Source: Actinomycetota bacterium (GTDB lineage Bacteria > Actinomycetota > Coriobacteriia > Anaerosomatales > Anaerosomataceae). Taken from it: a stretch of 64,000 nt of DNA. Below the pieces are notes generated by a model. It searched no databases. It saw only the letters and a program-made list of their open reading frames with translations, and was not told the origin of the DNA. Positions within the stretch are counted from its first letter, which is position 1. Each line of letters opens with the position of its first letter. This document shows, piece by piece, positions 37,089-42,307 of this stretch. Location: contig WSXY01000002.1 of NCBI GenBank assembly GCA_009773565.1, forward strand, positions 1-64,000. Reading direction: 5' to 3'. The translations under genes and the position numbers were made by a program.

Positions 37089-37143
37089 TAGGCTCCGGAT
37101 GCCGGAGAACCGGGTGGGAACCCCTGTCCGCACGGGAGGCGTA

Positions 37144-38316
37144 GTGCTTCGGTCTGCGAGATTCGCTCCGATGCGCATCGCGACGATGCTTCTGCTCGCC
37201 GCGCTCATCGCCATGCCCGGCGTTACGAACGCCGCGCCGTCTACCCTCAAGGCAAAGGAAGCCGAGCGTACGGCCGCACTCGCTGAGCTCGAGGCGCTTG
37301 AGACCCGACTGAACACCCAGATGACGCAGTACGTCGACATCAGCCGCAGAATCGAAGTCGCGAGACTTGAGTTTTCTGACGCGACGACCCGGGTTGCAGA
37401 GGCGGACGTCCAGCTACAACAGGCAAAGGCCGCGCTCGAGGATCGCGTCGTGCAGCTCTATTGCGGCGGTCGCGTCGGGCTCATCGAGGTGCTCTTCGCC
37501 GCAGAATCAATACAGGATCTCATGAATCGGGCGAACTACCTCACGCTCGTTGGGCGGCACGACACCCGGCTTATCGAAGAGATGCGTATCGCACGCCAGC
37601 AAAGCGAGTGGGAGCAGAAAGAGCTCTTTAGCCGGGTCGATCAGCTCACACAACTGCAGATTGAGGCGGATACCCGGCGGGCTGATATTGAGAACGCCAT
37701 CGATGCCCAGCAGCTGAAGGCGACCGAACTTGGCGAGGACATTGCACGTCTCATGAGGTTGCGGGCGGGCAGTGCACCCGACGGTTCATTCTCGCCCGAC
37801 ACAGTGATCTCAGACGCGAACTTCCGTGACGTGGGGTCAATGACCGCTGCCGACATTCAGGAGTTCCTCGATGAGCAGCCGGGAACCCTCGGCTCGTATA
37901 GCGCCCTCGACTATGACGGCCGCACGAAGACCGCCGCGCAGATGATCGCAGAGGCATCTACGTACTGGAAGATATCGCCCAAGGTCATTCTCGTGAAGCT
38001 CCAGAAGGAACAGTCACTTCTCGCAAAGGCCAACCCGTCTCAGACGGCATACGACTGGGCCATGGGGTGCGGAAAGGCTGACAGTCGCACGTACTACGAA
38101 TACCAGGGCTTTGGGAAGCAGATCTGGTGGGGAGCACAGAAGCTCGATAAGAATGCGCAGCCGTGGTATCCGGGTATCGAGATGATCATCAACGGCAGCC
38201 TCGTGCTGCCCACGAATGAGGCGACCTACTCGCTCTACAAATACACGCCGCACCTTCGCGGCACGACATCGTTCTGGATGCTCTATTGGCGGTACTTCGG
38301 AGACCCGCTCTCCTAG
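37144..38316 (+). CDS. Secreted coiled-coil protein with lysozyme-like C-terminal domain
   Basis: The 390-residue precursor has a signal peptide (to about 33), a long coiled coil (about 35-205) like those of FtsX/PcsB-activated wall hydrolases, and a C-terminal domain with ISPKVILVKLQKEQSLL, YDWAMGCG and YQGFGKQIWWGA. The Glu in KEQSLL recalls the catalytic Glu of lytic transglycosylases, so a murein-degrading role is plausible but unproven. GTG 37144 follows GGGAGGCGTA. A CTGGTATCATCG extended -10-like element is at 37077-37088. Confidence 0.75.
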   Translation: MLRSARFAPMRIATMLLLAALIAMPGVTNAAPSTLKAKEAERTAALAELEALETRLNTQMTQYVDISRRIEVARLEFSDATTRVAEADVQLQQAKAALEDRVVQLYCGGRVGLIEVLFAAESIQDLMNRANYLTLVGRHDTRLIEEMRIARQQSEWEQKELFSRVDQLTQLQIEADTRRADIENAIDAQQLKATELGEDIARLMRLRAGSAPDGSFSPDTVISDANFRDVGSMTAADIQEFLDEQPGTLGSYSALDYDGRTKTAAQMIAEASTYWKISPKVILVKLQKEQSLLAKANPSQTAYDWAMGCGKADSRTYYEYQGFGKQIWWGAQKLDKNAQPWYPGIEMIINGSLVLPTNEATYSLYKYTPHLRGTTSFWMLYWRYFGDPLS

Positions 38317-38358: not shown

Positions 38359-39840
38359 CTAGAGGTACTGCCAGACGTCTTCGATGCCGGCCTCAGCCGC
38401 GGGTATGCAGTCAGTGATCGAGAGCGAGAACGTCCCGCTTTCTTCTGAGATGAGTCGCAGGTCCACGGTCTCCGGCTGCTCGAGCCAGCGCCCGGCCTGA
38501 TCGATAAGTCGCCTGATGCGGGGGCGAAGCAGGTCATCGCGGTTCACGCGGAAGACGACACCCGTGGTCCCGTCATTCATCGTCACGACAGCACCCATCG
38601 GGTAGATGCCGAGCATTGCGACAAGCGCCTTCGTGATACTCGGGTCATACGCCTTGTTCCGACCCTGCATGAGCACGGCGAGCGCTTTGTCCGGACGGAT
38701 CTCGCGACGAAACGGACGTCGGGTCGTCATCGCGTCGTATGCATCGCACAGCGCCACTATCTTGCTGAACAGGTGCTGCTCGGACGGTGCACTGACCTCG
38801 GGATAGCCCTGCATGTCGTGGCGCTGGTGGTGCTCGTAGGCTACGACCATCGGCATCTGGTCGACGAGCTGGATGCGCTTCAGCAGGTCCGCACCTTCAC
38901 TGGCGTGGCTCTTTACGATCTGCCACTCGTCGGCAGACAGCGGGCCCTCCTTGTTGAGAATCCCTTCGGGTATCCGCACCTTGCCGAGGTCGTACAGCAG
39001 CGCCGAGAGCCCGAGTGACTTGAGCGACTCCGCATCAAGGCCGAGCGTGGCGCCGAGTGAGAGCGAGAGGATGCACACGTTGATCGAGTGATTGAGCGTG
39101 TAGTCGTCATGGCTCCGGATTGCAGTCAGGCCGAGAACTGCAGCGGGATCCTTGAACAGGTTGTCGAGGAGGTTGCCGACGAGGTTCTGTAGCGGTCCGA
39201 CCTCGAAGACTTTGCCGAGTTTCACCTGCGTCTCGACGTCGCGCATGATCGTGACGCCCTTGTCGTAATCCTGCCGGGCCTCAAGCTTGTTCTGGCGTTC
39301 CTCGGCTTCTTTGACGGCCGAGTCAAGATCAGTGGTTTCGGCTAGCTTGACCGCAGTCGCACCCTTGCTCTCGAGATACTCACGCGACTTGCCGATTTCG
39401 GAGATGCTGCTTTCGTTCATCAGGCCAACCAGTGCGACCGCATCATTCTCGCTGAAGGCATAGTCGAGCGTGACCGCCGAGACCTCATGTGCGAGCAAGT
39501 CGACGATGAGTTTGCGATACGTGACGCTTTCCTCGGGCAGGACGTGGTCCTCGATGAAGAGCGTCCCCTTGTAGACGTTGATGGTCACGTCCTCAAAGCC
39601 GAGGGCCATCACGGCGCTTACGGCGGCGACAAAGTCGGCGTTCGACTGCATCACGAGTGGGTGGGACGCCGGGTAGAGCGACGCGTTCGTCTGAGCCACG
39701 GCGAAGGTTCGTGCCAGATCGCGGGCGCGTTCAAGCCGCTTTGCCGTCGCGAATGGCGTTCTGCTCGCCGGCTGGGCCAGTGAGGCTATCTCCTCGTTCG
39801 TTTCGAGACGCTCCTCGTTGCTGCGGGTCTCATCGGTCAC
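38359..39840 (-). CDS. HD-GYP domain protein with Tyr-Asp in place of His-Asp
   Basis: The 493-residue protein has an N-terminal domain of about 110 residues (NASLYPASHPLV.., TINVYKGTLFIEDHV) shared with the upstream HEAT-repeat gene, then a linker and an HD-GYP domain. HD-GYP motifs are NHSINVCILSL, LLYDLGKVRIPEGIL, HHQRHDMQGYP and CDAYDAMTTRR, followed by AYDPSITKALVAMLGIYP. The normal His of the LLHDxGK metal site is Tyr. HD-GYP proteins hydrolyse cyclic di-GMP or related dinucleotides; loss of a ligand may reduce activity or make this a binding protein. The start is 26 bases after the HEAT gene stop, so they form an operon. Confidence 0.9.
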   Translation of the reverse strand: MTDETRSNEERLETNEEIASLAQPASRTPFATAKRLERARDLARTFAVAQTNASLYPASHPLVMQSNADFVAAVSAVMALGFEDVTINVYKGTLFIEDHVLPEESVTYRKLIVDLLAHEVSAVTLDYAFSENDAVALVGLMNESSISEIGKSREYLESKGATAVKLAETTDLDSAVKEAEERQNKLEARQDYDKGVTIMRDVETQVKLGKVFEVGPLQNLVGNLLDNLFKDPAAVLGLTAIRSHDDYTLNHSINVCILSLSLGATLGLDAESLKSLGLSALLYDLGKVRIPEGILNKEGPLSADEWQIVKSHASEGADLLKRIQLVDQMPMVVAYEHHQRHDMQGYPEVSAPSEQHLFSKIVALCDAYDAMTTRRPFRREIRPDKALAVLMQGRNKAYDPSITKALVAMLGIYPMGAVVTMNDGTTGVVFRVNRDDLLRPRIRRLIDQAGRWLEQPETVDLRLISEESGTFSLSITDCIPAAEAGIEDVWQYL

Positions 39841-39866
39841 GCGGGCATCTCCCCTCGATGGTCATG

Positions 39867-41654
39867 CTATGAACTCTCAAGGAGCGAGAGCGTCCGTTGG
39901 GCAAGGTAGCGCAACTCACGATTCTTCTTGCCGATAACAAAGCGCCGTCGTGCCATCCGTGTGAGAACACTTCTGGCCTGAGCAGGACGCATAAGTTCCA
40001 GGCTCCTTAAGACTTCTTTCTTAAGCTCGTAGTTCCTTTCGAAAAGGTAGACCTCTTCGAGTAAACGGAGGAGTGCGGGCAGCGCCTCCACGCGATTTGC
40101 GCGTCCTATCTCGCGTGCCGCGATGCGCCGGGTCTGTGGATCCCAGTGCGCGAGTGCGCGCTGGAGCATCGATGCGCTTTCTTTGCCGGGCATGTCGGCG
40201 AGCGCGGTGATTGCCGCCGCGCGAACGCCGCCGTCGAGGTGGTCGAGCGCCTGGCTGATGACGGGCGTCAGTCGTTTGTCGCGGAGCGAGACGAGAAGCT
40301 CGACGACGATTGCCGAACGCTCAGGCGTGCCGGTGCGCAGCACGCGCGCGGCGACCGGGCCGACGATCTCTGCGAGCCGCCCGGTCTCGGTTGCGAGGTA
40401 CGCGCGGGCGTCTGCAGGCGCGTTCACGTACGCTTCGAGGATTTCCTCGGCGAGCGAGGTTCGGACGCTCGATACGCCCATACTCAGCGCCGGGTTGGAC
40501 GCGAGCTGCGCGAGCAGCACAAAAGCCGCGCCGAGACCAGCGTAGACGTGGCGCTCCAGAGCCGTTCGCACGGCGTCCCCGATGGCGATTACCGACTCCT
40601 CGGTGGGTCGTGCTGCGGCGACCTGGAGTGTCGTGGAGAGAGCCTTGGAGGCGAGTTGCGCCGGCGTGGAAGCAGCCACGAGCGTCTCGACATGCTCCTG
40701 GTCGCTCTCGCTGTACTCGGCGACCTCGGCCACGATGCCCGGCGCGTCCGCTTCTGCGGGCACGCCGCGCTCCTGATCGCTTTGCGGCGAGGGTCGCAGA
40801 AGGGCTGCGAGCTCCCGTGCCACTTCAGGTGGAATCTCGATGGCACCAAGAAGAGAATCGGGCGCCTCGCCCGCGCTTGTTGCGACAAGCTTGAGGAGCC
40901 GCGCGAGAGCAGCGGGCTGCATCTGCGCGATCGCGTCGAGCATGCCCTTCATGGGCTTCGCCCCGTTGCCGGGGAGCATGGCGGCCGAGACGACCCGCAC
41001 GCGCGTCGCTTCATCGAGGCGCAGCAGCGCTTCACCGATGCGTCTCGCGGCAAGATCCTGCGCTGCGGCTTCGTATCCGCCTATCGCACCCGCGATGTCG
41101 TCACGATCATGTCCGCTCGCAACCCATGCATCGACAGCCGTCTGAAGCTCGCTCGCGATATCGTCGAGCGGCGCAGCGGTCAGATCCATTCCGAGGATTC
41201 CCGATTCGCTTGAGACGCGGAGCGACACTTCGACGAGAGCGATATTGCGGACACCCGCCTGGATGAGTGCGGCTCGCGCACCGCCGCCTCCGCGAACCGT
41301 CTTCGCGTCCGCACCGAGGATGTCGAGGAATGCCCCGACCTCGCTTGTGGTGGCGCCGGACGCGATGATGAGCTGACCGACCTGGAGCGCGTGGAGTGCC
41401 TCTGCGAGCGCCGCAATCTGCGTCTGTCCTGCACCGACTGAGACGTCACCGAGCAAGAAGCGCTCGCGGTCGACGCGTAGTTGCAGCGCGCCTGCGGCAG
41501 TCAAGGAGTGGCTGGTCTCTGCGAAGCGCGCAATCGCGTCTTCGCGCATCGGGCTTGAAACCGGATACAGCCGGACGGCGTTCGCCGCGACAGAGAGCAG
41601 GCGCAGAAGCTGCTCCGCGCGCGCGACCGGGCTGTTGCCGCCCGATACGTCCAC
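39867..41654 (-). CDS. HEAT-repeat protein with shared N-terminal domain
   Basis: The 595-residue protein opens with a domain of about 110 residues (NAVRLYPVSSPM.., LRVDRERFLLGDV, then a hydrophobic helix pair) that aligns with the N terminus of the HD-GYP protein. The rest is helical and alanine-rich, ending in recognisable HEAT repeats (DGGVRAAAITALADMPG, DPQTRRIAAREIGRANR). HEAT repeats are scaffolds for protein binding. GTG 41654 after GAAGGGGGAACA is chosen over an ATG at 41750. It is probably co-transcribed with the HD-GYP gene. Confidence 0.85.
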   Translation of the reverse strand: MDVSGGNSPVARAEQLLRLLSVAANAVRLYPVSSPMREDAIARFAETSHSLTAAGALQLRVDRERFLLGDVSVGAGQTQIAALAEALHALQVGQLIIASGATTSEVGAFLDILGADAKTVRGGGGARAALIQAGVRNIALVEVSLRVSSESGILGMDLTAAPLDDIASELQTAVDAWVASGHDRDDIAGAIGGYEAAAQDLAARRIGEALLRLDEATRVRVVSAAMLPGNGAKPMKGMLDAIAQMQPAALARLLKLVATSAGEAPDSLLGAIEIPPEVARELAALLRPSPQSDQERGVPAEADAPGIVAEVAEYSESDQEHVETLVAASTPAQLASKALSTTLQVAAARPTEESVIAIGDAVRTALERHVYAGLGAAFVLLAQLASNPALSMGVSSVRTSLAEEILEAYVNAPADARAYLATETGRLAEIVGPVAARVLRTGTPERSAIVVELLVSLRDKRLTPVISQALDHLDGGVRAAAITALADMPGKESASMLQRALAHWDPQTRRIAAREIGRANRVEALPALLRLLEEVYLFERNYELKKEVLRSLELMRPAQARSVLTRMARRRFVIGKKNRELRYLAQRTLSLLESS

Positions 41655-41777
41655 TGTTCCCCCTTCGGTCGCCGGAGTGCTTCCGGCGCATTGGCCCAAG
41701 CGGTAATCTTCGGGTGCGCGAGGTATCACACCGAGGCTATTTGTGATCACTGCGCGCGCCGATATGTATATGGTACC

Positions 41778-41783: not shown

Positions 41784-41812
41784 GAGGGTAGTTCGTGCGA
41801 TAGGGAGTGAAG

Positions 41813-42307
41813 TTGGCCCTCAGAAGTGACAACTACTATCGGGAGCTAGCGGCTCAGGCTGTGCGTGACGCGCACATCGAGGAGCCGCCAGTACCGCCGA
41901 CCGCGATTGCGGCCAAACTCGGCGTCCCGATTGTGGAGTTGCCGTTCCCGTCGTGGTTCACCGCAGCACTCGTCTATGAGGACGGTATGCCGGCGATCCT
42001 CCTCAACAGCACCAAAGAGGAGGCGACCCGGCGCTCAGGAGTCGGCCATCTTCTCGGACATCTGCTCATCGTGCTGGACGACCAGAGTGCCGGGTATCCC
42101 AAGGAGGGTCTGACCTACCACCGGGATGCGGACTTCTTGTCCGAGGAACTTGAGATACCAAGCTTCATGGTCATCGATCAGGCGCAGAAGTGGTTCAATG
42201 ACTACCGCTATCTGGCACGGCTCTTCGGTGTGAGCGAGAAGCGCATGCTCGATAAGATGCATGCCCTGGGGATCCTCAAGAACCGCGGCCTGCTGTGGGA
42301 CTACTGA
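41813..42307 (+). CDS. ImmA/IrrE-like protein lacking the catalytic glutamate
   Basis: The 164-residue protein has the layout of DUF955/ImmA-IrrE metallopeptidases: N-terminal helix, PPVPPTAIAAKLGVPIVELPF, the metal-site helix, RDADFLSEELEIP, and a C-terminal LARLFGVSEKRMLDKMHALG helix pair. Where active members have HExGH this one reads HLLGH, so the two His ligands remain but the catalytic Glu is Leu. It is probably inactive as a protease and could be a sensor or decoy. TTG 41813 has GGGAG at good spacing; GTG 41807 is an alternative. Confidence 0.75.
   Translation: MALRSDNYYRELAAQAVRDAHIEEPPVPPTAIAAKLGVPIVELPFPSWFTAALVYEDGMPAILLNSTKEEATRRSGVGHLLGHLLIVLDDQSAGYPKEGLTYHRDADFLSEELEIPSFMVIDQAQKWFNDYRYLARLFGVSEKRMLDKMHALGILKNRGLLWDY

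Follow-up and report, generated by a model that had tools for sequence, protein, structure and literature searches.

The window analysed here, a stretch of 64,000 nucleotides from an Actinomycetota bacterium of the order Anaerosomatales, raises the question of what joins two neighbouring genes, one coding for an HD-GYP protein and the other for a HEAT-repeat protein, whose N-termini look alike. The two minus-strand ORFs follow one another in tandem, adjacent and co-directional as the sequence-only reading had them, with the HEAT gene upstream and a gap of 26 nt between the two. The HEAT-repeat protein (HT1; 39867..41654, -) has 595 residues counted from a GTG start at 41654, and an alternative GTG at 41750 on the same strand would extend it to 627. 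The HD-GYP protein (HD1; 38359..39840, -) has 493 residues and also begins with GTG, preceded by GAGGGGAG; a purine-rich stretch precedes the start of each gene. Pfam assigned HT1 to the HEAT repeats (HEAT_2, 41.5 bits vs a curated cut-off of 27.7), recognised at residues 496-570 (39945..40169, -; E=1.7e-10), and its C-terminal part resembles HEAT_2/PBS-lyase HEAT repeat proteins (PF13646), whereas its N-terminal domain lies outside that family. In HD1, residues 241-402 (38635..39120, -) matched HD_5 (E=1.6e-23) and the protein also matched PF01966 (E=8.4e-12); its closest solved relative by sequence is PmGH (PDB 4mcw, 4mdz, 4me4; PMC4159591), with an E-value of 6.8e-25 for 4mcw. The C-terminal region beyond the HD-GYP domain (residues 412-493; 38362..38607, -) consists of predicted beta strands and has no Pfam match.

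The two N-termini are homologous. Aligned as profiles of 20 orthologues each, those of HT1 and HD1 gave an hhalign probability of 96.9 (E 1.5e-10, 135 columns), while the controls, reversed profiles and three slices of the HEAT body of the same protein, remained at a probability of 0.4 or less. A profile built from the HD-GYP N-termini only found every HEAT N-terminus (E<=1.4e-6; best unrelated ORF of 2787, E=1.0), and one built from the HEAT N-termini only found every HD-GYP protein (E<=1.3e-8; best unrelated ORF of 2787, 0.13). Since these reciprocal searches and the controls separate cleanly, the similarity is not due to chance, and the lack of profile similarity that the sequence-only reading named as its refutation was not observed. 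The LYPxSxP pattern pointed out in both N-termini is literally there, as LYPASHP in HD1 (residues 55-61; 39658..39678, -) and as LYPVSSP in HT1 (residues 29-35; 41550..41570, -), and L55, Y56, P57, H60, and P61 of HD1 are invariant in an alignment of 20 sequences. The common N-terminal domain proposed from the sequence is thus confirmed, although it extends over about 135-150 residues and not the roughly 110 first suggested. It covers residues 9-142 of HT1 (41229..41630, -) and 33-168 of HD1 (39337..39744, -).

The AlphaFold models, aligned separately, present the same order of elements in both proteins: two helices, a beta hairpin, a helix, a strand, two or three helices, and a final strand. 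This set is slightly richer than the strand pair and terminal helix pair originally described. In HT1, whose domain core has a pLDDT of ~97, the helices span residues 9-29, 35-51, 78-89, 103-114, 117-122, and 126-132 and the strands 57-61, 66-68, 71-73, 92-97, and 138-142; in HD1, the helices are at 33-55, 61-79, 106-117, 131-141, and 149-158 and the strands at 84-90, 93-96, 120-126, and 164-168. The LYP residues lie at the turn joining the first two helices. The domain belongs to no family that we found in Pfam, NCBIfam, or the PDB: Pfam gave no match over its cut-off in the N-terminus of either window protein, no consistent family emerged from Pfam on 29+29 N-domains or from NCBIfam on 51, PDB sequence searches with the N-domain profiles returned nothing significant, and Foldseek with the confident HT1 model gave no hit in the PDB or BFVD with an E-value under 0.7. 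DUF3391 was considered as its identity and rejected (10.4-14.1 bits vs a cut-off of 27.8, with coverage only beyond the domain core).

The genome contains three such HEAT-HD-GYP pairs, the one in the window (pair 1) and two others on another contig (pairs 2 and 3), which are divergently oriented ~6 kb apart. The six proteins all share the N-domain, with a probability of 96 or more in 15/15 profile comparisons. Pair 1 was found in 20/20 relatives examined for it and pairs 2 and 3 in 20/20 examined for them, always co-directional and with the HEAT gene first, and start/stop overlaps of 4 nt are common within the pairs of these relatives (the few large overlaps between HEAT and HD-GYP genes are an artefact of taking the longest start). 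The surroundings of pair 1 are also conserved in most relatives, including an M78-like protein, a ROK kinase, DUF362, and DUF7544, as well as rsmI and metG, both recognised by sequence. This inheritance together with conserved neighbours within the order is what would be expected if the domain reflected nothing but common origin, with the genes kept side by side by vertical descent and no joint function at present. However, the pair persists across phyla in differing neighbourhoods and frequently with overlapping stop and start codons, for which vertical inertia is insufficient, and we regard this explanation as highly improbable.

Outside the order, an adjacent pair on one strand with the HEAT gene first was found in 28/28 loci examined, counting as HEAT the partners in L254 and L260, which the full-length profile tagged as HD owing to their N-domain. 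The same adjacent pair occurs at loci labelled Oligoflexia (L157), Stahlbacteria (L158), and TA06 (L160) and in a MAG labelled Slackia (L156). The N-domain was detected in 47 of the 296 Actinomycetota genomes drawn and, among those listed from this draw, it was absent from genomes of the same class belonging to other orders. In the phylum that contains a Deltaproteobacteria-labelled genome, 67/148 genomes code for the domain and, among the matches listed, 43/64 genomes had two same-strand matches 1.2-2.7 kb apart; the 18 loci fetched from this phylum, picked for looking paired, all showed the HEAT gene followed by the HD-GYP gene (the HD domain of one of them, L298, was recognised by Pfam). 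Trees of the HD and HEAT partners are similar, recovering the same main groups and placing L156 beside pair 1 in both, although the HEAT tree was built quickly and its deep branches are weak. When plasmids were searched with a member from the Deltaproteobacteria-labelled genomes, no place covered 80% of it, and only HD-GYP domains were matched.

In L158 (1617-5018) and L160 (4545-7897, +), folP and a gene for a CdaA-like diadenylate cyclase, recognised by eye, lie downstream of the pair. A link to c-di-AMP was considered from this arrangement and dropped, as the other neighbourhoods examined gave it no support.

The N-domain was also found in other architectures. GGDEF-AAA_16-N-domain-HEAT proteins are present in Actinomycetota (L220:3524-7693, -; L221:6591-10451, +), and GGDEF-AAA_16-HEAT proteins with tandem N-domains in the Deltaproteobacteria-labelled phylum (L312:2553-6893, -; L313:2030-6271, +). 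These fusions in two distant groups tie the domain to c-di-GMP. There are, besides, stand-alone proteins of ~800-1200 aa with the N-domain and HEAT repeats but no HD-GYP neighbour; hence, the domain is not strictly dependent on an HD-GYP partner. The sequence-only reading had proposed a common module carried by a signalling domain and by a scaffold that work in one pathway. The search suggested there for the domain on other proteins was positive for GGDEF, HD, and HEAT alike and, considering the three paralogous pairs, their presence in other phyla, the similar trees, and the GGDEF fusions, this part of the proposal holds well; as a whole the interpretation is partly supported, with sensor and docking module both putative roles of the domain.

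A sensor would recognise one cue, a small molecule or a protein, in both partners, which could then act in parallel with no need for contact. A globular N-terminal domain attached to several outputs (HEAT, HD-GYP, and GGDEF-AAA-HEAT) is how an ordinary sensory domain behaves, and there is a near-invariant Tyr at the turn between helices 1 and 2. Nevertheless, the domain is internal in the long fusions, between AAA and HEAT, its columns average 22% identity, the LYP turn being the exception to this variability, conserved residues that would line a pocket are not obvious, and the regular pairing of two genes that carry it fits partner binding better, which makes a sensor rather unlikely. The reading that we prefer, to which we give about even odds (a probability of roughly 0.5), is that this unnamed domain serves in docking or dimerisation, so that a HEAT scaffold and an HD-GYP switch are coupled through it, the copy in the window being a probable c-di-GMP receptor.

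The HD-GYP domains of the three pairs were compared over 21 proteins each, using the residue numbering of PmGH. In pair 2, H189, H221, D222, K225, H250, H276, H277, D305, GYP, and R314 are kept in 21/21 and a Tyr occupies the E185 position; these residues match the Y/F subfamily as defined with PmGH (PMC4159591). Pair 1 retains the equivalents of D183, H189, D222, K225, H250, H276, H277, Y285, R314, and D305. The GYP motif (residues 345-347 of HD1; 38800..38808, -) and R314 are invariant in it, and K317 is an Arg in 21/21, so that the c-di-GMP contacts count as kept; the E185 equivalent is a Tyr, again as in the Y/F subfamily. What chiefly sets the window copy apart from pair 2 is the HD histidine. 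The equivalent of H221, a metal ligand in PmGH, is a Tyr in 21/21 pair 1 proteins, and the motif reads YD (Y283-D284 of HD1; 38989..38994, -). The HD-GYP label given to this gene is therefore right for the family (HD_5) but not for the HD motif itself. In a second set of loci, partly overlapping in genomes with the first, LLYD(L/I)GK was present in 39/40; this pattern would miss L156, which reads LLYDLGT. Pair 3 (L044:2942-4264, +, and orthologues) keeps most metal ligands, although D305 is Asn in 5/21 and the D183, Y285, R314, and K317 positions vary; this variation affects the Tyr of its GYP motif (Y/W/F/V) and the Arg/Lys contacts to c-di-GMP, hinting at a different ligand. The Glu following HH is replaced in all groups.

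Given that the HD histidine is a Tyr in all orthologues, HD1 is probably not a working phosphodiesterase, as far as its residues indicate. The change is not decay, since neither pair 1 protein has a part more conserved than the HD-GYP domain (80-92% identity per 50-residue block). Tyrosine is able to act as a metal ligand, and HD1 might for that reason still hydrolyse c-di-GMP or act on another nucleotide; the invariance of the other ligands and catalytic residues, and a degree of conservation that is typical of an enzyme, would agree with such activity. Against it, the H221A substitution essentially abolished the activity of PmGH (PMC4159591), and PA2572, a YN-GYP protein of Pseudomonas aeruginosa, is reported to have no detectable c-di-GMP-degrading activity and to be regulatory all the same (PMC3411652). 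Moreover, the change to Tyr is a fixed one, shared by pair 1 and by L156, its sister, whereas 25 of the 26 other pairs compared have His, L156 being the only exception. We thus consider a working enzyme with an unusual ligand improbable, more so than a sensory N-domain.

The precedent closest to a receptor is DvhD of Desulfovibrio vulgaris, a metal-free, inactive HD-GYP protein that works as a c-di-GMP switch, in which the HD motif is SQ and binding of c-di-GMP alters the helical segments preceding the domain (PMC13090378). The matches to PDB 9rbz and 9rc0 appear to correspond to this protein. The loss of an essential metal ligand, by which a receptor of this type can be recognised, is found in HD1 as the replacement of H221 by Tyr. 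DvhD and HD1 have in common the HD-GYP fold and the loss of the HD motif, and the helical segments before the domain in DvhD may have a counterpart in the helix predicted for HD1. However, DvhD carries a periplasmic dCache domain and a PAS domain and has lost both HD (SQ) and HH, while HD1 has lost only the HD histidine and has the new N-domain and a HEAT partner. PA2572 likewise has a Tyr at the HD histidine but differs in having a receiver domain and in having lost the Asp too, and the accessible part of its description mentions no HEAT partner (PMC3411652). PmGH has all eight metal ligands, whereas HD1 is without E185 (a Tyr, Y/F subfamily-like) and H221. By analogy with the loss of activity in PmGH H221A, regulation by the inactive PA2572, and the metal-free switching of DvhD, HD1 can be seen as a candidate c-di-GMP receptor.

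On the docking reading, the window genes would belong to a widespread type of c-di-GMP signalling module made up of two proteins, in which the N-domain most likely joins the HEAT and HD-GYP proteins to each other, or dimerises exchangeably. In the HD-GYP partner, the N-domain is predicted to sit on a long helical stalk running to the HD-GYP domain; in HD1, this helix spans residues 174-207 (39220..39321, -), modelled at pLDDT ~56-82 within a full-length AlphaFold model that is poor across the HD-GYP half. With its HD histidine fixed as Tyr and the other residues kept, the HD-GYP domain of HD1 would most likely bind c-di-GMP without hydrolysing it, and we infer that binding would move the stalk and thereby alter whatever the HEAT scaffold holds. 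Pair 2, with its catalytic residues intact, would be a hydrolase, and pair 3, in which the c-di-GMP contacts are lost, may answer another signal. A bolder reading, which we offer tentatively and would not bet on, is that c-di-GMP modules with this domain form a new family, their HEAT scaffolds and HD-GYP proteins assembling through it, and that the Anaerosomatales pairs divide the work, with pair 2 as eraser, pair 1 as reader, and pair 3 responding to an altered ligand; the reader would then have arisen by a single, order-wide His-to-Tyr change. As the three paralogous pairs differ in defined active-site residues, the question of eraser versus reader is directly testable.

The genome codes for 10 GGDEF domains and six MshEN domains; no PilZ domain was found in it or in any of the genomes of the order searched (41/41). 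If the receptor reading is true, HD1 would be a candidate receptor for an order with diguanylate cyclase domains but no PilZ detected, although, considering the six MshEN domains, other c-di-GMP receptors probably exist besides it. Among c-di-GMP enzymes, HD-GYP proteins form a major class, and a description of the HEAT/HD-GYP pair, or of a conserved HEAT partner sharing their N-domain, was not found in a literature search that had most subscription journals outside its reach. The pair represents a variant of HD-GYP signalling in which the domain is unnamed and the HEAT partner apparently undescribed; if the receptor reading is right, it would add a c-di-GMP receptor/scaffold system across several phyla.

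A relative of the HD-GYP partner along its whole length, in which the HD motif is wholly absent, was found in a Deltaproteobacteria-labelled genome (L244:1432-2871, +); the HEAT relative (L238) lies on another contig. Next to pair 1, a convergent gene codes for a PcsB-like coiled-coil protein (window 37099-38316, +) that was matched in the loci of only 4/20 relatives. The divergent neighbour on the other side, an ImmA/IrrE-like Peptidase_M78 protein (window 41807-42307, +), is kept in 20/20; its HExxH motif is without the catalytic Glu in every aligned sequence (HLLGH in the window copy), and hence it is probably not a peptidase.
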